A stretch of DNA of 42,853 nucleotides, taken from the IMG/VR virus record IMGVR_UViG_3300021371_000036, positions 1 to 42,853 of that record. The stretch is one strand, 5' to 3'. Of the stretch, positions 1-10,338 are shown in pieces. The number at the start of each line of letters is the position of its first letter. Position 1 is the first letter of the stretch. Under the pieces are notes generated by a model, which made no database searches, had not been told where the DNA came from, and saw only the letters and a program-made list of their open reading frames with translations. This DNA comes from a virus. The position numbers were made by a program, and so were the translations under genes.

Positions 1-199
1 GTAAACTGGTTGCACCTAAGAATTCAGGCAGATTGTAGATACTGAAATCTTGAGGAAACTCCTCAGATACAGTTGCAACTGCAAGAATGTTTTTCATATT
101 AGAGATTGTTTGAAGTGTATTACCACTTGTAACCTTAATCCCTTGGTTTATTGTTGAGAAATTTTTGAAGATATCTCTCGTATCATTACTTATTTTCAT
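1..199 (-). CDS. 45: Sliding clamp gp45, N-terminal part (runs off the window)
   Basis: The reading frame from the ATG at 199-197 starts MKISNDTRDIFKNFSTINQG and continues through the window edge, so only about 66 residues are seen. The start closely resembles T4 gp45 (Met-Lys-x-Ser-x-Asp-Thr, then Lys-Asn-Phe-x-Thr-Ile-Asn). The T4 family forms the trimeric clamp that holds the phage DNA polymerase on DNA and also activates late transcription together with gp55 and gp33. It lies 2 nt downstream of the DUF3310-like gene, so it is probably co-transcribed with it and with the CobS-like gene. The C-terminal two thirds are outside the window. The identification rests on the N-terminal similarity and the synteny with gp46, gp47 and gp55. 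Confidence 0.85.
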   Translation of the reverse strand, partial: MKISNDTRDIFKNFSTINQGIKVTSGNTLQTISNMKNILAVATVSEEFPQDFSIYNLPEFLGATSL

Positions 200-201
200 C
201 A

Positions 202-513
202 CTAGTTAGCCTCCTTATTTGCTTTGTCGTGAACATGTAGCATGAAAAGTGCATAGTGTAATACTTTAAGTATATCTGCACGATTCTTCCCATCTTTTTT
301 TCCGTATCTTTGGGCATACTTTAGTATATTCCCGATACAAAATCCTTCACCATGACCACTGTCAATTATAAATTCAGTGGACTGGTATTTGTTTAGACTA
401 TAATGTTGGTCATAGGTTTTATCAATATACTGAGAGAACTCCTTTAAGAGTTCTCCCTCGTTATATTTGTAGTCTATCTTTTTAGACTTGTTAAATAAAC
501 CCATACTAGTCAT
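202..513 (-). CDS. DUF3310-like small protein
   Basis: This protein has 103 residues if it starts at the ATG at 513 (MTSMGLFNKSKK), which overlaps the stop of the CobS-like gene by 8 nt. A second ATG at 504 would give 100 residues, and an in-frame extension to 555 lies wholly inside the upstream gene. The C-terminal half contains GFCIGNILKYAQRYGKKDG followed by a Leu/His-rich helix. That pattern (Gly-Asn-x-x-Lys-Tyr, Arg, Gly-x-Lys) is typical of DUF3310, a small-protein family common in phages with no firmly known reaction. It sits between the AAA+ ATPase and the gp45 clamp and shares their operon. Family assignment is by motif only. Confidence 0.6.
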   Translation of the reverse strand: MTSMGLFNKSKKIDYKYNEGELLKEFSQYIDKTYDQHYSLNKYQSTEFIIDSGHGEGFCIGNILKYAQRYGKKDGKNRADILKVLHYALFMLHVHDKANKEAN

Positions 514-1756
514 TATACTCTGAAGACTCAGTTTCGTCAACTGGGTTTTCTGCATTCAAGTCTACTCCAGCATCAATCTTGGAGTAGAGGTCGAGGATAC
601 TATTTCTAGTCTCTTCGTCAAATCTTGAAATACACATTGTTATTGACTTCAATTTGTCATTGAACATTCTGTATGCATTCACAATGTGAACCAATCTTCT
701 AGTAGTGATAACATCATCAATCGCACCTTCATAGTAGGTTTTTCTGATTATGTCCGCCCAATCTACTAGTTTGACACAGAACTCTTCGTCAACGTCTCCA
801 GTCAACTCCATTTCTTTTTTAAGAATACTTCTTTCAGTAGTCACTGGTGGGTATTCTTGTTGCATTGTGATTGCAAACCTTTCCAACATGGCTTCATTCA
901 TGATTTGAGTTCCTATGAACTTTCCATCGTCAGAACCTTGTCCTTTAGTGTTTGCAGTAGCAAGAATGGTGAAACCTTCTTTAGGTGAAACCCACTCACC
1001 AGTTTTCTTGATTAGGTATCCTTTACCTTCAAGAACTGATTGTAGACACATAAGTTTGTTAGAACCTAAGTCAACTTCGTCAAGAAGTAACACGGCACCT
1101 TTTCTCATTGCTTTGATAACAGGGCCTTCTCTGAAGACGACATTACCATTGACCAAAGTGTGACCACCCATTAGGTCGTCCTCATCAGTCTCGATTGTAA
1201 TGTTAACTCTGAAAAGTTCTCTCTTCAATTGAGCACAAGTTTGTTCAATCATTAACGTTTTACCGTTACCACTCAAACCAGTAACAAATACTGGAAAGAA
1301 GATTTTAGACTTGATTATGTTCTTGACATCTTTGAAGTGTCCGAAAGGAACATAATTAGACATTTTCTCGGGAATGATTTTCACATTGTCATTCATATTA
1401 ACAGACTCAGTAGCAGCTGCAACTGGCATGTTTTGTGGTGCAACTGGTGGTGCAACTGCAACCACTTTAGGTGCTGACATTACAGGAGGAACAACTGCAG
1501 ATTCAGAATATCCACCATTGTAACCACCAATAATTTGGGTAAGATTAAAGACACCATTGTCTCTAAAATTGTACCTAGAAGATTTTACCCAATATGGGAA
1601 CGTCCCAGTATTGTCAATTTCTTCTTTAGTAAAAACCGATTGATTCGGATACTTAGATACCAGTGTATCTAAAAATTCCTTCCTATCGGGTGTATAGTGA
1701 AACGGTTTTCCCATCACGTCAATCGATTCACTTCTATCGTAACTTCTTTTATCCAT
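506..1756 (-). CDS. cobS: CobS-like AAA+ (MoxR-type) ATPase
   Basis: This 416-residue protein has an N-terminal winged-helix-like segment (about 25-80), a Pro/Ala/Val-rich linker (about 87-115) and an AAA+ module. The module shows Walker A GLSGNGKT (160-167), Walker B AVLLLDEVD (221-229), sensor-like ATANT (266-270) and a conserved LERF arginine region (291-294). CobS is the ATPase of the aerobic cobaltochelatase, and homologues are widespread in cyanophages. More broadly, MoxR-type ATPases pair with VWA proteins to remodel client complexes. A VWA partner is encoded three genes upstream (2287-4677), which supports a two-component machine. The start has a good AAGGAG site, and a copy of the repeated early promoter lies at 1804-1833. 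Whether it works on cobalt chelation or another client cannot be told from sequence. Confidence 0.85.
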   Translation of the reverse strand: MDKRSYDRSESIDVMGKPFHYTPDRKEFLDTLVSKYPNQSVFTKEEIDNTGTFPYWVKSSRYNFRDNGVFNLTQIIGGYNGGYSESAVVPPVMSAPKVVAVAPPVAPQNMPVAAATESVNMNDNVKIIPEKMSNYVPFGHFKDVKNIIKSKIFFPVFVTGLSGNGKTLMIEQTCAQLKRELFRVNITIETDEDDLMGGHTLVNGNVVFREGPVIKAMRKGAVLLLDEVDLGSNKLMCLQSVLEGKGYLIKKTGEWVSPKEGFTILATANTKGQGSDDGKFIGTQIMNEAMLERFAITMQQEYPPVTTERSILKKEMELTGDVDEEFCVKLVDWADIIRKTYYEGAIDDVITTRRLVHIVNAYRMFNDKLKSITMCISRFDEETRNSILDLYSKIDAGVDLNAENPVDETESSEYND

Positions 1757-1803
1757 ATAGTCTCCTTGGTTTTAAGTTATTAATTATTTTTCTCATCTTG
1801 TAT

Positions 1804-1833
1804 AGTATACTAAAAAGTGAGACCCATTGTCAA
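1804..1833 (-). promoter_or_regulatory. Early-type promoter, repeat copy 1 (before cobS-like gene)
   Basis: On the minus strand, TTGACA (1833-1828) and TATACT (1809-1804) are separated by 18 bp. The 34-bp block including the spacer is identical to the copy at 4681-4714 and has one difference from the copy at 5034-5067. A sigma-70-like host polymerase probably reads it. The transcript would start some 40-45 nt before the ATG at 1756, leaving room for the AAGGAG site. Confidence 0.8.
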
Positions 1834-1841
1834 GTCTATTC

Positions 1842-2087
1842 TTACTTAATTGACTCAAATCTAGTTCCCATTTTTAGTTGTTGTTTCTCATTCAGTTCAC
1901 CACCATTGTTGACCCAAATTCTAAAGGCAAAACATTCCTTCTCTTCAGTTGCACACTCATTGACCATAGGACAATTGTATCTGACACATGGGGAAGGCCC
2001 CACGTCCATAACTGCGTCTGCAAACTTACTGTAATCTGTTTGGTGTGAAATGTAATATGCTTCGTCTACTTTTAATGTATCTCTCAT
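1842..2087 (-). CDS. Small four-cysteine protein, unknown
   Basis: This 81-residue protein is not recognised as a named family. Residues about 34-52 hold four cysteines with spacing C-x4-C-x5-C-x6-C, which could bind zinc or an iron-sulphur cluster. The rest is polar with no membrane segment. Its ATG overlaps the stop of the 67-residue gene by four bases (ATGA), so it is translationally coupled to it. It is the last gene of the group led by the CobT-like protein, and the next gene has its own promoter. Its position in a CobT-CobS segment makes a metal-related role conceivable, but this is inference from context. Confidence 0.75.
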   Translation of the reverse strand: MRDTLKVDEAYYISHQTDYSKFADAVMDVGPSPCVRYNCPMVNECATEEKECFAFRIWVNNGGELNEKQQLKMGTRFESIK

Positions 2088-2287
2088 TGTGTTTTCTCCA
2101 TGATTTTTTGTAAAGTGTATCTGTTATCCAATAGTGTCACTTCAAAAGTGTCTTGAATGTAATCGTGTTCTACTAGGTAAGGTGCTTCCTCATTCCTAGA
2201 TTGTAGAATCATAACCCTATTGGTAAAATCCCTGTAATCGTCTCTCTCTAAAATAAACGTTTCATTCATCATATATTTTGCTTCCAT
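2084..2287 (-). CDS. Small protein of unknown function
   Basis: This 67-residue protein starts MEAKYMMNETFILE and is acidic, with no recognisable domain, signal peptide or membrane segment. The ATG at 2287 shares a base with the stop of the CobT-like gene (TAATG), and its own stop overlaps the next start (ATGA). This tight coupling on both sides supports a real gene. It may act with the AAA+/VWA pair, since it lies between them, but nothing in the sequence shows how. Confidence 0.65.
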   Translation of the reverse strand: MEAKYMMNETFILERDDYRDFTNRVMILQSRNEEAPYLVEHDYIQDTFEVTLLDNRYTLQKIMEKTQ

Positions 2288-4677
2288 TATGCAATCTCCT
2301 TTATAAATTCGTTAGTCAAGAACCTTGAAGTGGTTTTTGATTTTTGGTTTCTTTTGAAGGCAGCCATTACCCTCACTTTTTTGGCATCAATAAACTCATC
2401 GTCAAGTTCGTCTGAACCCTCGGTGTGCATGTTCTTCGCATAAGTGACAAACAGTTTGTTATATCCTTTACACTTGAACACTTTACCTTCTTTTCTGATT
2501 TCTCTCCAACAAGTATCATAGTCTAGTGAATTTGCATTCTCAGTATATCCAAGAACATTGTACAGGTCTTGTTTTTTACCCATAACAAAGTATCCAGTGA
2601 CAATCACACCACAAGTCTCTGATATCCATTCTAGAATGTTTTGAGTCACACTGAAACCACCTCTGGCATAGTAGTCACTCTTTTCTTGAAGAGGGAACAC
2701 TTTGTTTGTGTAAGGGTCGATTAAGTCTCTAGACCTTGAAGTTCTCCATGCAACTTCACCGATATTTTTTTCTTGTTCTTGAATATCTTTTCTTTCCTCT
2801 TCACCTTGTCTGAGGAAGTCTGCAGAATGTGAGAACCCATCAGTGATTATAGTTAAGATTGATTTTTCAACTTGATATCTTGCATTGAACTCAGGCAATA
2901 GAGTTCTAAGTGCAACAAGTGTTTGGTCAAGTGGTGTACCACCTAGTCTGTAATCTTGAGGTCTGAAGTTTTGTTCTAAGTCCCAGTAACTACCAGTCTC
3001 AGCAGAACAATACTCATACTCACCAAAGAAATCATTGTAAGCACCAATAGCTTTTTCATAGTTTCTCCATGAAATTTTTTGAGTGAAGTAGTTTGCATAC
3101 AAACAACCAACATAACCTTGCATTTCTTTGTATTGTCTACTACTCATTTCATTAGAGAATATCTCAATAAGTCTTCCTTCGTTATTTAAATATCCACTCT
3201 CATCTTTAGGAACACCTTTGTAGTATGCATCAGAGAAAAGATACACTCTGAAAGGAATGTTTGTTTTGTTACAGAACTCTGCAAGTATCATTGATTGTTC
3301 TAAAAGGTCACATACTTCATCATTGATAGAACCACTCCAATCAAGAAGAACATTTAACCCGTGGTTTTCACCCTCGGGAAGATACACAGCTCTTTTGAAA
3401 ATGTCATCAACAATTTGGTATTTTGCAAGTCTATTCATATCTAACTTACCAGTTTTACCACTGAATGCTTTCTTAGAAACTTTTGCAGTTTGTCTCATCT
3501 CAAATTCTTTTGCCATGTGAGCAATAATTTTTTTGTTTTTTTGTTCCAGTTTCTTGGCAGCAAAAACACCTCTTCCGTAATTCTTTTCAAGTTTTTCTTT
3601 AGTGTAATACTCTGAAGTAGTACCAGTAACATAATCTTTCCAATCATTTAGAACTTGTTTGAAAGGAACCACAACGTCATGCATGTCATTCTCTGCAAAG
3701 GTTGTTCTTAGATTGATTGTAGACTTGATTATATTCTCATCAGAAAGAAATTGTTCTTCACTGTTATGTGCATAATGTTCTGTAATAGATTCTCTAGCAC
3801 CGTCTTCTTGGTCGTGGTATCCATCTGATTGACCACCTTCTTTACCACCAGTAGATTTAACTTGTTGGTCTGATTCATCAGTGTCACCTTCTTCGTCTGC
3901 AGTGTCCTCTTCAGTGTCACCACTGTCAATGTTATCGTTTAACTCGGGAAGTGTATCCTCTTCGGCATCCTCTTCGTCTGAATCTCCACCATCAGCAGAT
4001 TCTTCAGAGTCATTTTCCATCTCTTCCATTTCTGATTCTTCTTCGTCACCCTCTTCGTCACCCTCTTCGTCAAGGTCAAACATTTGAGGAACTAACATTT
4101 CATCGTCTTCAGTTCTTGTTTCGTTTTCTTTAGACCACTCATAGATTGCAGTTGCACATTCGACAACGTCTTCCCAAGTCTTACACGCTTCTGACATATC
4201 TAAGAATTCTTGTTCAACTGAATTGAATTGAAGACCAAGTCTTGAACCGACTTTAGTTTGTAAATTGATTTTATCAATCAATGAAAGTTCTGTAAGATTT
4301 CTATTCTTTAACTGAAAGAAATCCATTTCCATTAATTCATTGTATGCAGTGTAGAATGATTTCCTCAATCCTGCGAATTTATTTTTGATTGCTTTCTCAA
4401 TCCTAACATCTTCAACAACGTTAAGATATCCTTTAAGTGTTCTATTCATTTCTAATGCAGAGTGAAGTCCTTCATAAGGAGTATTCAATGCATGTCCAAC
4501 TTCGTGACCCATGAATAGGTCATAAAGTTCTGCAGATATATCTTCTTTAAAGATAGGACAAGCAAGTATCCTATTCTTTACGTCAAAATATGCAGTTGGT
4601 ATTTTCTTGTGAACAATGGTGATGTTCTCAGCAGCCATTAGTTTAGCAAGTATGTCTTTTTCGTTTCTTTTTGTCAT
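2287..4677 (-). CDS. cobT: CobT-like protein: zincin-like N-terminus, acidic linker, VWA domain
   Basis: This 796-residue protein has three parts. Residues about 20-130 carry HEVGH (58-62) followed by NVVEDVRIE (86-94), a zincin-like HExxH plus downstream Glu arrangement. Residues about 195-310 are an extremely acidic linker of Asp, Glu and Ser. The C-terminal part is a von Willebrand A domain with a complete MIDAS: DWSGS at 446-450, a Thr in RLGGTPL and an Asp in TDGF. The order (helical N-domain, acidic stretch, C-terminal VWA) matches CobT, the partner of CobS in cobaltochelatase, and related metallopeptidase-VWA proteins. The MIDAS should bind Mg and contact the ATPase ring. The ATG lies only 6 nt after the -10 box and has no ribosome binding site, so its mRNA may be leaderless. 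A true cobaltochelatase role is doubtful because no CobN-like subunit is visible. Confidence 0.8.
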   Translation of the reverse strand: MTKRNEKDILAKLMAAENITIVHKKIPTAYFDVKNRILACPIFKEDISAELYDLFMGHEVGHALNTPYEGLHSALEMNRTLKGYLNVVEDVRIEKAIKNKFAGLRKSFYTAYNELMEMDFFQLKNRNLTELSLIDKINLQTKVGSRLGLQFNSVEQEFLDMSEACKTWEDVVECATAIYEWSKENETRTEDDEMLVPQMFDLDEEGDEEGDEEESEMEEMENDSEESADGGDSDEEDAEEDTLPELNDNIDSGDTEEDTADEEGDTDESDQQVKSTGGKEGGQSDGYHDQEDGARESITEHYAHNSEEQFLSDENIIKSTINLRTTFAENDMHDVVVPFKQVLNDWKDYVTGTTSEYYTKEKLEKNYGRGVFAAKKLEQKNKKIIAHMAKEFEMRQTAKVSKKAFSGKTGKLDMNRLAKYQIVDDIFKRAVYLPEGENHGLNVLLDWSGSINDEVCDLLEQSMILAEFCNKTNIPFRVYLFSDAYYKGVPKDESGYLNNEGRLIEIFSNEMSSRQYKEMQGYVGCLYANYFTQKISWRNYEKAIGAYNDFFGEYEYCSAETGSYWDLEQNFRPQDYRLGGTPLDQTLVALRTLLPEFNARYQVEKSILTIITDGFSHSADFLRQGEEERKDIQEQEKNIGEVAWRTSRSRDLIDPYTNKVFPLQEKSDYYARGGFSVTQNILEWISETCGVIVTGYFVMGKKQDLYNVLGYTENANSLDYDTCWREIRKEGKVFKCKGYNKLFVTYAKNMHTEGSDELDDEFIDAKKVRVMAAFKRNQKSKTTSRFLTNEFIKEIA

Positions 4678-4683
4678 GTTTAT

Positions 4684-4713
4684 AGTATACTAAAAAGTGA
4701 GACCCATTGTCAA
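4684..4713 (-). promoter_or_regulatory. Early-type promoter, repeat copy 2 (before cobT-like gene)
   Basis: TTGACA (4713-4708), an 18-bp spacer and TATACT (4689-4684) lie on the minus strand, within a 34-bp block identical to copy 1. The start codon at 4677 begins 6 nt after the -10 box, so the expected transcription start falls at or next to the ATG. The -35 box overlaps the last codons of the upstream 99-residue gene. Confidence 0.8.
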
Positions 4714-5009
4714 GTTTTTGATGATTTAATTTCGTCTCTGATTTCAGAAGCAAACTGCCAAGCGTTTAAATCACCACCACATTCGATACCAAACTCATTT
4801 GAGTTGATAACTAATTTGTAGTATTTTGAACCATCGATTAACTCTAATTTTTTCCCATCTTTAACTTTATGAGTTATCCAATATTTGTTATAGGAATTTC
4901 TGACTGGAGCTGTCCTCCAACCTATTCCATGGATAAAGTTTAAGATTTTTTGGGGGTCGAGTATTCCCTCGTTACCTTTGGGAACTCTTAGTACTGGGTT
5001 AAAATTCAT
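4710..5009 (-). CDS. Small protein of unknown function
   Basis: This 99-residue protein starts MNFNPVLRVPKG. I chose the ATG at 5009 because a strong AAGGAGA site lies just upstream and the longer frame to 5066 would cross the promoter at 5037-5066. The protein mixes basic and acidic residues, including WRTAPVRNSYNKYWITHK and a Cys-Gly-Gly near the C-terminus, with no family I recognise. Its early-type promoter suggests expression soon after infection, like the CobT-like gene that follows. Its last codons overlap the -35 box of the next promoter. Confidence 0.65.
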   Translation of the reverse strand: MNFNPVLRVPKGNEGILDPQKILNFIHGIGWRTAPVRNSYNKYWITHKVKDGKKLELIDGSKYYKLVINSNEFGIECGGDLNAWQFASEIRDEIKSSKT

Positions 5010-5036
5010 ATATCTCCTTTTTTGTATTACTCTTAT

Positions 5037-5066
5037 AGTATACGAAAAAGTGAGACCCATTGTCAA
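5037..5066 (-). promoter_or_regulatory. Early-type promoter, repeat copy 3
   Basis: TTGACA (5066-5061), an 18-bp spacer and TATACT (5042-5037) lie on the minus strand. The 34-bp block differs from copies 1 and 2 by a single base just before the -10 box. It lies 20 bp after the stop of the oxygenase gene and 27 bp before the ATG at 5009, so the transcript has a short leader with a good ribosome binding site. Confidence 0.78.
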
Positions 5067-5736: not shown

Positions 5737-6238
5737 AATCAATTCTCTTTTTTCTCTCTTTTGGTCTTGCTTTTAAAGCACGTTCCAGTTTGAGTCTAGA
5801 TGCACGTTGTAGGAATAGTATTCCATTTAAATGGTCACATTCATGTTGAACACATCTTGCACCTAAACCAGTTAAGTATATTGTATGTTCTTCACCACTT
5901 GCATCTTGGTATTTAAGTTCTATCTCTTTTGCTCTTTTTATCATTAGATAAATGTCGGGGAAGGATAGACAACCCTCTTTCATTAAATCGGTTTCTTGAG
6001 ATGCTTTAGTAATCTCGGGATTGAAAAATGCTTTAGTTCCACTGTCTGCAGTTTTCATTACAAAAACTCTGTAGTTCAATCCAACTTGATTTGCAGATAA
6101 ACCTATCCCACCATACTGTTCCATAGCAGCTGCCATGTTGAATTCTATCTCTTCGGGGTCTTCGGGTGGATTCTCGAAATCAAATTCGGGTGGTGGTGTT
6201 CGTAAGACTTTTGAGGCCTCTTCTATCAATTCTAACAT
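5612..6238 (-). CDS. def: Peptide deformylase
   Basis: This 208-residue protein carries all three deformylase motifs: GIGLSANQ (44-51), EGCLS (88-92) and QHECDH (131-136). The metal ligands Cys90, His132 and His136 and the catalytic Glu133 are therefore present. It removes formyl groups from nascent proteins, and phage versions are common in marine T4-like phages. The segment after about residue 165 is a basic then Ser/Asn/Gly-rich tail that phage deformylases usually lack or keep short. It is encoded where the oxygenase frame overlaps, so the tail may be a by-product of the overlap. The ATG shares one base with the stop of the upstream gene (TAATG). Confidence 0.95.
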   Translation of the reverse strand: MLELIEEASKVLRTPPPEFDFENPPEDPEEIEFNMAAAMEQYGGIGLSANQVGLNYRVFVMKTADSGTKAFFNPEITKASQETDLMKEGCLSFPDIYLMIKRAKEIELKYQDASGEEHTIYLTGLGARCVQHECDHLNGILFLQRASRLKLERALKARPKERKKRIDYETRIAIARAIQERESADSSESNNGNGVEGTDSVVQDSRAS

Positions 6239-7545
6239 TATTTAAAGTTTACCTCGGTGTTTACCTTTACTTTGACATCTACTTCAAAAACTTTCATTGC
6301 TTCTGATACAGATTCATTTATTAACTTTTTAGCACCTTCTGCTAATTCTGTAATTTTATTTATAAACCAATTCCATAGTGCAGTTAGTTTACCCTTTATC
6401 CAGTTCCATATGTCTTTAAGTTTGTCTACAAATATGTTCTCTGAGATTACACCCTCATTTAATTGATTTTTTGCTTGTATTACTTGTTCGTTTGCAGATT
6501 GTTTGAGTTCACCATGTTTATCTAATAGTGCAGATGCTGATACTCTTATTGCTTGATAAAAATTATATCCTGCTTTCTTATTATTGACTTTATATGAACC
6601 CGATTTTAAGTCTGCACGCATAGTCATTTTCTTTGCAGTTGCAGAGGCAAACTTTTTATCAATCGGTAATTGTTTGATTCTATCCATTCTATAATCCCAT
6701 ATGACCATATGTGTTGCAAGACCACTAACGTCACCACTACCTTGATTCATTGCATTCCCACCAAACTTTTCATGACCTGTCATGGCTTCAAATGCAAATG
6801 CACCACCAACTTCGGGATTATTAAATGCCTTTGCAAATAGTTTATTGATATCACCTTTTAATTTTTCTTGTTTTTCAACAATTTTTTTAGCTTCTTCATT
6901 TCCACTTTCGATTGCCTGTTCGGGTGTCATTTTTTTCAAGGTTCCTGAATCAATTTTTTCACCAACTGTTCTAGTGTTGTCTACAAAAACGTCTACTGCT
7001 TCTATTAATTGTTTCTTTAACTCTTCACTTGTTTTAACCATTGATAATGCAGATAAGATAGTTGCCTTTGCCTCTGCCTTTTTACCCGACATTAATTGTG
7101 CTTTCGGGCCTTTGACTGAAGAAGGTTTTCCACCAATCAATATATCCGCCTTTGAAGTGTCAATACCTTTACCAGTAGTTTCTTGCCAAAATTTACTTAG
7201 TTCTTTTTTTCTTTGACCAGCACCTGCGTCATGTTTACCACTTGGAAGTTTTGAATTACACACTTGTGCAAAGTCATACAGAATATCCATTTTCTCTTCT
7301 GTTGTTTTTACTTTATGTGTTGCAAATAGTTTGTTTGGTGTTTTAAGAAAACCAGTGACATAGTCGTCCTTGGTCATCTTCTCTATGAACTTATCCTTTG
7401 GTAATTTTGCATTTTGTAAACATGCAACTATAACACCTTCAAATTTTGTTGAGGCATCTGTTCCCTCACTAAGTGTAGGTGTATACTTAGGTAAATCTAG
7501 TTTGATTTCCTCTGTTGGATTAGTAAATTCTGAGAATGATTTCAT
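6238..7545 (-). CDS. Probable internal head protein with capsid-targeting-like N-terminus
   Basis: This protein has 435 residues from the ATG at 7545 (MKSFSEFTNPTEE). The longer frame to 7659 lies inside gp46 and crosses the late promoter. The N-terminus resembles the capsid-targeting sequence of T4 internal proteins (MKTYQEF), and residues 25-27 (LSE, before Gly) fit the gp21 protease consensus Leu/Ile-x-Glu. A middle segment (about 160-190) reads KADILIGGKPSSVKG and then QLMSGKKAEA, loosely like an Asp-x(n)-Ser-x-Lys nuclease core. Near the C-terminus an amphipathic Trp-rich helix (DIWNWIKGK then ALWNWF) precedes a helix of charged repeats. A late promoter sits directly before the ATG. I infer packaging into the head and possible ejection; the function is unknown. 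Confidence 0.7.
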   Translation of the reverse strand: MKSFSEFTNPTEEIKLDLPKYTPTLSEGTDASTKFEGVIVACLQNAKLPKDKFIEKMTKDDYVTGFLKTPNKLFATHKVKTTEEKMDILYDFAQVCNSKLPSGKHDAGAGQRKKELSKFWQETTGKGIDTSKADILIGGKPSSVKGPKAQLMSGKKAEAKATILSALSMVKTSEELKKQLIEAVDVFVDNTRTVGEKIDSGTLKKMTPEQAIESGNEEAKKIVEKQEKLKGDINKLFAKAFNNPEVGGAFAFEAMTGHEKFGGNAMNQGSGDVSGLATHMVIWDYRMDRIKQLPIDKKFASATAKKMTMRADLKSGSYKVNNKKAGYNFYQAIRVSASALLDKHGELKQSANEQVIQAKNQLNEGVISENIFVDKLKDIWNWIKGKLTALWNWFINKITELAEGAKKLINESVSEAMKVFEVDVKVKVNTEVNFK

Positions 7546-7550
7546 ATTAC

Positions 7551-7558
7551 TATTTATA
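7551..7558 (-). promoter_or_regulatory. Late promoter, 5 nt before ATG
   Basis: A perfect TATAAATA on the minus strand is followed by GTAAT and the ATG at 7545. No ribosome binding site lies between, so a transcript starting at the usual late position would be leaderless. The box begins one base past the gp46 stop codon. Confidence 0.7.
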
Positions 7559-9274
7559 TTATTCTGCAATTCTCGAGAAGTTTTTGTATTTCTCAAACCT
7601 AATAACGTCATTAAATTTATCATAAAGTGTTTCTCCTTTATGACTAATAATAAATGCATTCGTCTTTTCTGTCAAGGTGTTTAGTAATTTTAAGAAATCG
7701 TCTGTTCCTTGTGAGTCTAATGAAGAATCGAAAACTTCGTCTAAAATCAATAGGTTAGTGTTAACTGAGTTCTTCATTCTTGCAACACTTCTCCATGTGA
7801 ATAGTAGTGCAAGGTCGATTCTCATTTTCTCTCCTTGTGAGAAGTTATCATATTTGAATACGTCTCTAAATCTAGACTTGATTGTTTCTTCAAACTTTTC
7901 ATTCAGTTCAAAACCAACATAGAATTCTAATTGTGCAAGATACTTGTTAATCAGCTTGTTCATAATAGGAACATACTGTTTAATAATCTTTTGTCTTACA
8001 CCTTGGTCTCTGAGTAACACTTGTGCAATCTCAAAGTAGTGTCCTTGGTCTACTAGTGTTTCTTTCTTTGCATGTAGAATATCTAGTTTGTCTTCACTAT
8101 CACTGATTCTTTCTGACACGTCCCCATTACCAGTTGCTTCTTGTTTAAGTTCTGCAATCATTTTCTGCATTTTTTGAATGAACTTCTGATTAGATACAAC
8201 CTCTGTTTGTAGAATACCAATCTCTTTTTGAATTGTAGTTATTTCGTCTTGGATTCCGTTGATTTCTTGGATTCTATTATTGAGGTCTTCGACTTGTAAC
8301 TCAAGTTGTGACACCGCTTCCTTGATTTCTGAGACCTTATCCTGTTTTTCCTTAATGTGTTTCTTCTTGTGTTCACTGTCTAACCCCTGTTTGCATGTGG
8401 GACAATCGTCATTGTTCTCATAGAATTCAATGTCTTTAATTGCTTTTCTTCGAGCGTCCTCAAGTCTAGCTTCCATGTCAACTGTTTGTTTGAGTTTATC
8501 TTCTTTATTATCTTTATCTGAGATGGTGGATTTTTTCTCCACCACATTTTCCGTCTTTTCATCTATGTCCCCTAAAAGTTTGTTAATATTCTCTTGAGTT
8601 TCCTCAACGGTATCTTCATATTTTAGGATTTTCGATTCACGATTTTCACGAAGTGCATTAAGTTGTTCATTCAGTCCGTTAATTCTTTCTTCAAGTAAGT
8701 CGATTTCATGATTATTCTCTCTAACCTCAACAGTGTGATTAGAAATCTTTTTCTTAAGGATATCTCCCATAGTAGAAAAGATTGATATATCCAAAAGGTC
8801 TTCTACAAGTTTACGTCTATCCGATGCTTTTAATTGCATGAAAGGAGTAAAGTTTGCTGACCCGAGGATTGCAACTTGAGTAAAGGAACGATAACTCATT
8901 TTGAGTATGTTCTTTTCTAAGTGTTCTTGATAGTCTCTGACTGTTGCATCTTGGTTGACGAATACGTCATTAACATAGAGTTCGAATTTGTTTGGTTTGG
9001 CCGCTCTCATGACCTTATATTGTTTCTTACCAATAGAGAACTCAACCTCAACTACAAGGTTTCCTCCATTAACAGAATTGATTAATAGGTCTTTCTTTAG
9101 ATTTCTGAATCCCTTACCATAGAGTCCAAAACAGAGTGCATCTAGTAATGTAGATTTACCAGCACCGTTATCACCTAAGATTAGTGTTGTTTGGTGTTTG
9201 TCTAGTTGAATTTCTGTAAATTTGTTTCCACTGGATAGTAAGTTTTTATATCTTACTTTCTTAAAATTTATCAT
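7559..9274 (-). CDS. 46: Recombination endonuclease subunit gp46 (SbcC/Rad50-like)
   Basis: This 571-residue protein has an ABC-type ATPase split by a coiled coil. Walker A GDNGAGKS is at 34-41, a zinc-hook CPTC at 291-294 lies between long heptad-rich helices, and the C-terminal lobe has signature FSQGEKMRIDLAL and Walker B NLLILDEVFD. With gp47 it forms the Mre11/Rad50-type complex that resects DNA ends and degrades host DNA. Length matches T4 gp46 (560). Its start overlaps the stop of gp47 by four bases (ATGA), so the pair is translationally coupled. Confidence 0.97.
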   Translation of the reverse strand: MINFKKVRYKNLLSSGNKFTEIQLDKHQTTLILGDNGAGKSTLLDALCFGLYGKGFRNLKKDLLINSVNGGNLVVEVEFSIGKKQYKVMRAAKPNKFELYVNDVFVNQDATVRDYQEHLEKNILKMSYRSFTQVAILGSANFTPFMQLKASDRRKLVEDLLDISIFSTMGDILKKKISNHTVEVRENNHEIDLLEERINGLNEQLNALRENRESKILKYEDTVEETQENINKLLGDIDEKTENVVEKKSTISDKDNKEDKLKQTVDMEARLEDARRKAIKDIEFYENNDDCPTCKQGLDSEHKKKHIKEKQDKVSEIKEAVSQLELQVEDLNNRIQEINGIQDEITTIQKEIGILQTEVVSNQKFIQKMQKMIAELKQEATGNGDVSERISDSEDKLDILHAKKETLVDQGHYFEIAQVLLRDQGVRQKIIKQYVPIMNKLINKYLAQLEFYVGFELNEKFEETIKSRFRDVFKYDNFSQGEKMRIDLALLFTWRSVARMKNSVNTNLLILDEVFDSSLDSQGTDDFLKLLNTLTEKTNAFIISHKGETLYDKFNDVIRFEKYKNFSRIAE

Positions 9275-10338
9275 AGATAGTTATGTTCGTCCAAAGCCTC
9301 ATTATATAATGACGACATAAGTTCTGCAAGAGGTTTTTTCTTCCCTTGTATTTCCAACCCGTCAATATAGTTGTTTAATATAGTTAAAGTGTCTTCGATA
9401 TCTTCTATATCATCGTCACCATAGAAATCCATATGTTTATTATCGTCTACAACTGCAACGTGTATTGGATTACTTGCATGTAGTTTATCTAAAAATGTAT
9501 CAAACCAATAAGGATTGTCTTTGTTCACTACTATTACTTTCACAAATTTGTTTGTAAATTTAGAATAGTCTATGTTAGATATTGTTTCAAAAGTTTCTTT
9601 TGTATCGTCATAGAATGATTTCTCAAACATAGTGATTGGATTTAAAACTGGAGTAAGTTCTTGAGTCTCAGTATCAAATATATGGAAGTATTTGTTATCT
9701 CCATAATCTGACCAAGTAAATTGCATTTGAGACCCAAGATATCTGATATTTGCAAATTCAGATTTTTGGTGGAAATGACCACTCAAAACTGTTTCAAATC
9801 TTTTTACATAAGAATGGTCTAGTCCGTGTTGACACGTCATGCCTGGCATCATTAATGCACCTTCAAATTCGAAGTGTCCCATACACCAACTTGCATTTGC
9901 ACTCATTAAGAAGTCAACAGCGTCTGCATAGTTCTCGGGATTAATCCATGGAGACAATGCAATGTTAAATCCGTCATACTCTTTAACTTCATGTTCTTGA
10001 ATGACGTTTACATTTTTTTGATTGTATAATAACAACTCGGGTGAGTTTACTTCATTGGTGTTCTTATAATAAGTGTCATGATTACCTAAAATCAAATCCA
10101 TAGTAATACCACGTTCAGTCATTGGGTCAATGAAATGTTTGATATTTGCTTTCATAGAAGCAAAGTTTATATACTTTCTCCTATCAAAGTAATCTCCTAA
10201 GTGGATTATGTGTTTTATATTGTGTTCGTCCATATATGGAAAGAACACTTCATTGTAGAATCTTCCTTGGTAATTTGACATTTCTATCATATCACCTCGG
10301 ACACCACAATGGGTATCATTTAGTAAGGCTATTTTCAT
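9271..10338 (-). CDS. 47: Recombination endonuclease subunit gp47 (Mre11-like)
   Basis: This 355-residue metallophosphoesterase has metal-binding motifs in the expected order: D8-x-H10 (NDTHCG), GDYFDRR (48-54), GNHD (85-88), a His in MGHFEFEG and GHFH further on. It is the nuclease partner of gp46. Length is close to T4 gp47 (339). Its ATG overlaps the gp55 stop (ATGA), so gp55, gp47 and gp46 form one coupled operon. No promoter of its own is visible. Confidence 0.97.
   Translation of the reverse strand: MKIALLNDTHCGVRGDMIEMSNYQGRFYNEVFFPYMDEHNIKHIIHLGDYFDRRKYINFASMKANIKHFIDPMTERGITMDLILGNHDTYYKNTNEVNSPELLLYNQKNVNVIQEHEVKEYDGFNIALSPWINPENYADAVDFLMSANASWCMGHFEFEGALMMPGMTCQHGLDHSYVKRFETVLSGHFHQKSEFANIRYLGSQMQFTWSDYGDNKYFHIFDTETQELTPVLNPITMFEKSFYDDTKETFETISNIDYSKFTNKFVKVIVVNKDNPYWFDTFLDKLHASNPIHVAVVDDNKHMDFYGDDDIEDIEDTLTILNNYIDGLEIQGKKKPLAELMSSLYNEALDEHNYL

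Follow-up and report, generated by a model that had tools for sequence, protein, structure and literature searches.

What do genes resembling cobS and cobT do in a T4-like phage? The IMG/VR virus record IMGVR_UViG_3300021371_000036, whose 42,853 nucleotides (42.9 kb) constitute the window analyzed here, carries a CobS/CobT-like pair on its minus strand: an AAA+ ATPase and a partner that joins a zincin-like N-terminal domain, through an acidic linker, to a von Willebrand factor A (VWA) domain with a metal-ion-dependent adhesion site (MIDAS). With little more than even confidence, we read this pair as a MoxR/VWA remodelling machine, expressed early, whose substrate domain is of zincin type (zinc-metallopeptidase-like) and whose target is replication-related or a host protein, and not as a cobaltochelatase. 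The narrower proposition that the pair serves MoxR/VWA remodelling rather than cobalt chelation is, in our judgement, highly probable. The module itself is known, but the name under which it is filed probably misdescribes its job. Structures were predicted with AlphaFold2 (AF2), taking the predicted local distance difference test (pLDDT) as the measure of model quality, and compared using Foldseek. The elements of the pair and the evidence for each are as follows.

506-1756, minus strand: CobS-like MoxR/CbbQ-type AAA+ ATPase, 416 residues (PF07728, PHROG 249, motifs)
1842-2087, minus strand: 81-residue four-cysteine protein (79 of 79 informative pelagic loci)
2084-2287, minus strand: 67-residue protein overlapping the CobT stop (31 loci with a homologue in this position)
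2287-4677, minus strand: CobT-like zincin-linker-VWA protein, 796 residues (PHROG 459, AF2 model, Foldseek)
4090-4677, minus strand: zincin-like N-terminal domain, residues 1-196 (HExxH in 168 of 168 relatives, AF2, Foldseek)
3787-4089, minus strand: acidic linker, predicted disordered, residues 197-297 (composition, pLDDT)
2287-3360, minus strand: VWA domain and C-terminal part with MIDAS (invariant MIDAS, Foldseek)

An AAA+ ATPase and its partner with a zincin-like and a VWA domain

The CobS-like protein is a MoxR-clade AAA+ protein with intact Walker A (GLSGNGKT, 160-167), Walker B (VLLLDE, 222-227) and sensor 1 (TAN, 267). It matches PF07728 (AAA_5) with 64.6 bits and PHROG 249 with E=4.8e-113, and its nearest single-ring proteins in the PDB are bacterial CobS (9ujv, E=8e-23) followed by NorQ (9qh4, E=5e-12). 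Its score against the CobS equivalog model TIGR01650, 81.7 bits, falls far below the cut-off of 558.55. The CobT-like protein corresponds end to end to PHROG 459, labelled 'peptidase' (E=1.4e-150). Both PHROG matches lie far beyond chance and uphold the sequence-only reading of this DNA, which had proposed a CobS/CobT-like pair at 506-4677; the HExxH at residues 58-62 with a downstream glutamate, the acidic linker, the MIDAS at 446-450 and the two coupled small proteins, one with four cysteines, are likewise all where that reading placed them.

Asp and Glu make up 47% of linker residues 197-297, and Lys and Arg 3%. The AF2 model of the full-length protein has a mean pLDDT of 73.6, falling below 50 over residues 197-288, and its pLDDT profile displays the succession of N-domain, disordered linker and VWA domain. 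The MIDAS is complete (DWSGS 446-450, T581, D613-G614) and invariant in the alignment of relatives. The best PDB match of the model is the NorD VWA in the NorQ-NorD complex (E=4.3e-4), and Rea1-MIDAS is likewise among the matches. Neither of the CobT Pfam domains, PF06213 and PF11775, matches the window protein, although a distant Klebsiella phage relative has them; a direct sequence-profile link from the window CobT to solved structures was discarded, as it returned only acidic-linker noise. The open reading frames (ORFs) of the 67- and 81-residue proteins overlap by a few bases with the CobT-like gene and with each other. The longer of the two contains an invariant C-x4-C-x5-C-x6-C, is present in every pelagic locus with sufficient flank and matches no known family in profile libraries including Pfam and PHROG; the shorter has no match in Pfam or PHROG.

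In the N-domain, HEVGH (58-62) is followed by E89 and E94 within NVVEDVRIE. HExxH conservation, on which the sequence-only reading had staked its metalloprotease proposal beforehand, proved absolute: HExxH, NxxEDxx[IV]E and DxSxS each occur in all 168 full-length viral relatives, which extend down to ~25-30% identity and include a separate phage-plasmid group. A 64-sequence alignment of N-domains from two distant phage groups retains only 15 invariant columns, among them H58, E59, H62, N86, E89, D90 and E94. The motif also stands at the corresponding position in SSU5 (Salmonella), RHph_X66 (Rhizobium), CRP-810 (a Roseobacter phage), Zobellviridae T5S1, Vibrio phage MJW and a Klebsiella phage, and in profile comparison the T4-like N-domains align with those of other phages over HExxH (99.2%, E=1e-19). 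That reading had also named an N-domain fold lacking a zinc site as a refuting result, and the prediction did not bear this out: modelled in isolation, the domain reaches a mean pLDDT of 85.7 and is predicted to take on a zincin layout, with three strands, an HExxH helix (49-65) and a glutamate helix (79-100) bearing E89 and E94. Foldseek ranks selecase, abylysin, jannalysin and myroilysin highest (E 0.12-0.5, probability up to 1.00); of the first 16 PDB matches, 15 are metallopeptidases or ArdC, which is metallopeptidase-like, and BlaR1 is among these sixteen. The minigluzincins selecase, abylysin and jannalysin have a compact pairing of HExxH helix and glutamate helix like the one predicted here, though none of these matches is statistically significant; they stand alone, whereas the window domain is fused through the linker to a VWA domain and coupled to an AAA+ ring.

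From motif and model together, the N-domain site is a probable gluzincin-type zinc site, and the chances that the CobT-like protein is a catalytically active protease appear evenly balanced. A 2021 paper names the pair cobST and declares the 'peptidase' label an error; at the level of the active-site motif this remark is not supported, since HExxH is invariant, aligns across phages and sits in a domain of zincin-like prediction.

Bacterial CobS and CobT (PDB 9uka) likewise form an AAA+ ring with a partner composed of N-domain, acidic linker and VWA domain, and profile comparison relates the CobTs of other phages to bacterial CobT over its full length (hhalign 100%, E=2.5e-52). Unlike the phage proteins, the bacterial CobTs examined have no HExxH at the aligned site: it was found in none of 81 rhizobial-type CobTs (one of them a fragment) and in none of 22 from a class-wide alphaproteobacterial sample.

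A core phage module beside replication genes

The sequence-only reading had presented a CobT partner next to a marine-phage cobS as exceptional. A survey of how often the two genes occur together overturns this: the CobT-like gene is universal in T4-like cyanophages, where it is annotated 'peptidase', and the premise that cobS usually lacks a CobT reflects annotation habits, not genomes. Across 50,697 phage records, CobT and CobS alike matched 365 records of Synechococcus phages, 61 named 'Cyanophage', 24 of Prochlorococcus and three of Pelagibacter phages. CobT queries retrieved 179 viral loci; in 171 of them cobS follows closely behind cobT on the same strand, and the other eight contigs end within ~700 bp of cobT, so that cobS adjoins cobT in 171 of 171 informative loci. 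The pair thus represents a core module of marine T4-like phages, split between PHROG 459 ('peptidase') and PHROG 249 ('porphyrin biosynthesis'). The name cobST is already in published use (PMC8651126, PMC7029224), and both genes have been reported in pelagimyophages (PMC7029224). The window shares with cyanophage and pelagimyophage cobST (for instance HTVC008M gp107-gp108) the two proteins, their order and the slot between gp46 and gp45; its copy differs in having two small genes between them and two sigma70-type promoters, and its CobT shows only ~30% identity to cyanophage homologues.

Several candidate relatives and sources were set aside. A bacterial origin was dropped after a tblastn search of 72,556 plasmids with the window CobT gave no match, and a scan of IMG/VR with a Vibrio phage CobT as query returned none either. 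The MoxR ATPase of Staphylococcus Kayvirus was excluded because its neighbours (682 residues, upstream, and 281 residues) have neither HExxH nor a convincing MIDAS; that of IncC plasmids was left out, the sequence of its neighbour not having been read. We observe separately that these IncC-plasmid and Kayvirus ATPases (neighbours of 302 and 281 residues) lie in replication or recombination regions, with ssb, bet, exo and DNA ligase. In the record of Pseudoalteromonas phage vB_Psh_XG4, flagged UNVERIFIED, cobT as well as cobS is spread across several frames, perhaps through sequencing errors; HExxH is kept and gp45 comes next.

In almost all the phage lineages examined, the pair has replication or repair genes as neighbours. 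It lies between gp46 and gp45 in S-PM2, P-RSM4 and HTVC008M. SSU5 has it between DNA ligase and a large DNA polymerase gene, and both hairong and RHph_X66 have it between ligase and the gene for Pol III alpha. In BUCTxx99 it is flanked by primase and Pol III, DNA polymerase and primase are its neighbours in Zobellviridae, and endonuclease V stands beside it in CRP-810. Gene order varies between cobT-cobS and cobS-cobT, so these arrangements are not one inherited block. Whether the target of the pair is itself linked to replication we regard as an even call.

The window is of T4-like type, with genes for portal, sheath, scaffold, protease gp21, major head protein, UvsW, UvsY, gp55 and gp47. Its major capsid protein is closest to that of Methylophilales phage Melnitz (67%) and then to that of Pelagibacter phage HTVC008M (66%). 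On the minus strand, gp47 and gp46 are followed by a 473-residue ORF, peptide deformylase, a 2-oxoglutarate (2OG)-Fe(II) oxygenase, a 118-residue ORF and the CobT-like gene, after which come the 67- and 81-residue ORFs, the CobS-like gene, a DUF3310 protein and the start of gp45. The oxygenase and the deformylase both lie within 2 kb of the pair. The corresponding slot in Melnitz contains a TIGR03299 phage/plasmid-like gene and no cobTS. The flanking genes and promoters are located as follows.

2-202, minus strand: gp45 sliding clamp, N-terminal part (PHROG 223, E=1.5e-25)
1803-1833, minus strand: sigma70-type promoter directly upstream of the CobS-like gene, identical to the next (pattern scan)
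4683-4713, minus strand: sigma70-type promoter TTGACA-N18-TATACT directly upstream of the CobT-like gene (pattern scan)
7559-10338, minus strand: gp46/gp47 SbcCD-like recombination nuclease genes (gp47: PHROG 100, E=3e-96; gp46: position and SMC-like sequence, matching the S-PM2 and HTVC008M arrangement)

The perfect element TTGACA-N18-TATACT occurs three times in the window against 0.07 expected, at the 118-residue gene, cobT and cobS. A promoter-type element stands upstream of CobT in 59 of 75 relatives (2.8% background) and, with a looser pattern, upstream of cobS in 54 of 77 (5.9% background). Because strong sigma70-type elements are present at both genes, the sequence suggests early transcription of the pair by host RNA polymerase; the pelagiphage transcription literature (PMC12753301) does not cover this phage type.

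Three further features were recorded in the window. The 118-residue ORF (4710-5066, minus strand) belongs to no known family, and its promoter (5036-5066) overlaps its TTG-started 5' end; it may be part of the same early regulon, with its true start further in. The only match of the 473-residue ORF (6238-7659, minus strand), to the restriction-endonuclease-fold family Tox-REase-3, falls short of the threshold (E=0.005). Two families of tandem repeats, of 24 and 60 nt, are dense between 33603 and 34926.

A candidate mechanism and its alternatives

Since the architecture of N-domain, linker and VWA domain is shared with NorQD, that system provides a model for how CobST may work. NorD has an N-domain, a disordered linker and a VWA domain; the VWA domain inserts a finger into the pore of the ring and touches the target through its MIDAS, and the linker that ties it to the N-domain is proposed to be twisted and stretched as ATP is cycled (PMC9976466, PMC13036017). 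NorQ/NorD and CbbQ/CbbO resemble the window pair in combining a MoxR-type ATPase with a two-domain VWA partner; they differ in that the window ATPase is closer in sequence to CobS and no nor or cbb genes are present. The window N-domain is predicted to be zincin-like, and the comparison with NorD concerns VWA fold and layout, not the zinc site. Midasin/Rea1 also couples a MoxR-type AAA+ to a MIDAS/VWA domain that acts on an acidic residue in the target; unlike the window pair it is a single giant eukaryotic chain with no zincin. On the NorQ/NorD model, CobS would form a hexameric motor and CobT its adaptor, the VWA domain engaging the CobS ring while the MIDAS metal grips an acidic residue of the target. 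The zincin domain, on its long acidic linker, would bind the same target and probably cut or clamp it, as ATP cycles twist and stretch it. The most likely targets would be a phage replication, recombination or transcription protein, or an obstructing host protein.

Several observations weigh against this reading. The Foldseek matches of the N-domain are individually non-significant (best E=0.12), and the direct profile match of T4-like to bacterial CobT is weak (77%), the link through other phage CobTs being stronger. Both histidines are lost from the CobTs of Pseudomonas phage hairong (SEIAK), Stenotrophomonas phage BUCTxx99 (REVST) and the Acinetobacter phage-like plasmid pAba10324c (QEVAK), which implies that catalysis is dispensable in some members; these CobTs keep their CobS, and in hairong and BUCTxx99 their flanking ligase or primase and Pol III genes. 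They are either pseudo-enzymes whose remodelling role suffices, or a sign that the zinc site is not primarily catalytic. No replication neighbour appears in the stretch read of Gordonia phage Monty, and co-location by itself does not show function.

The loss of the histidines in three lineages, arguing that cutting is non-essential, fits a chaperone of the NorQD type, which would open a phage or host metalloenzyme for metal or cofactor insertion while the N-domain site carries or senses metal and cuts nothing. The NorD VWAs as best structural matches, the oxygenase and deformylase near the pair and the four-cysteine protein always found in the operon of pelagic relatives all favor it. HExxH with a downstream glutamate is nevertheless the classic peptidase arrangement, the catalytic Glu59 varies no more than the ligands do, and neither oxygenase nor deformylase stands beside the pair in S-PM2 and P-RSM4; we consider this explanation unlikely.

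A protease for counter-defence or host takeover, directed against a component of host defence or of RNA polymerase, would make sense of the strong host-type sigma70 promoters, with the early expression they would imply, of ArdC, an antirestriction protein, among the fold matches, and of a module whose presence at one slot varies between related phages (present in HTVC008M, absent from Melnitz). Counter-defence genes are usually patchy, however, whereas this module is near-universal and syntenic in cyanophages, its replication-gene neighbourhood is constant and the ArdC match is weak (E=0.34), which leaves this alternative distinctly improbable.

The published reading makes the pair a booster of host cobaltochelatase, in which phage CobS and CobT replace the host chaperone subunits and act with host CobN to raise cobalamin, for instance for ribonucleotide reductase; it was put forward in PMC8651126 and, for cobS alone, earlier in PMC2984593. 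The homology to CobS and, via other phage CobTs, to CobT supports it, and cyanobacterial hosts can have CobN, Synechococcus elongatus being positive for PF02514. CobN is nevertheless missing, as the sequence-only reading had remarked, from the window record, which is a fragment, and a full-length bacterial CobN query matched only two of the 50,697 phage records: an entry named for P. aeruginosa and a faecal contig of 7 kb, neither of them annotated and both possibly host DNA. The loci read contain no B12 gene close to the pair. Pelagimyophages encode both ribonucleotide reductase subunits (PMC7029224), which points to a class I enzyme independent of B12.

Related pairs occur, moreover, in phages of Klebsiella, Salmonella and Vibrio and in HTVC008M. 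Those three genera are not known to rely on the aerobic CobNST route, nor is the Pelagibacter host of HTVC008M known to make B12. Considering also the CobS score far under its equivalog cut-off, the CobT that fails both Pfam domains and an invariant zinc site that is missing from the bacterial CobTs examined and has no known role in chelation, we regard the booster as the least probable explanation. The sequence-only reading had held a remodelling or metalloprotease machine to be as likely as cobalt chelation; that alternative stands, and it fits better than chelation.

Implications for viral and bacterial CobT

The equation of CobT with B12 synthesis is also unsafe in cells. CobN accompanies CobT normally in Rhizobiales, in 28 of 30 Rhizobiales-type genomes carrying CobT. 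In a sample of 289 alphaproteobacterial genomes, some of which may be incomplete, 216 have CobT (PF06213) and 115 CobN (PF02514); 111 have both, and 105 of the 216 CobT genomes have no CobN. The control genome of Caulobacter vibrioides is CobT-positive and CobN-negative; Bartonella-type genomes, considered as a further example, were dropped because all three Bartonella loci tested have CobN. Even in cells, then, CobT is no sure sign of B12 synthesis, and the tally points to a B12-independent role of CobT in bacteria.

A broader proposal, which we advance tentatively and hold to be doubtful as a whole, is that phage CobST may be a widespread ATP-fuelled zinc-protease machine acting on replication proteins, with ring and protease on separate chains joined by a MIDAS-VWA adaptor; bacterial CobST would be a specialised relative that has lost the zinc site, with a B12-independent role in CobN-less Alphaproteobacteria.

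Marine viral ecology treats cobS as a vitamin-B12 auxiliary metabolic gene and a cyanomyovirus marker, and PMC9983427 lists it under 'Vitamin B12 synthesis'. The invariant zinc site contradicts the published view of 'peptidase' as an annotation error. If the pair is indeed a remodelling or protease machine tied to replication, many statements on viral B12 metabolism would be misannotations, and abundant ocean phages would carry a core gene pair with a role yet to be discovered.

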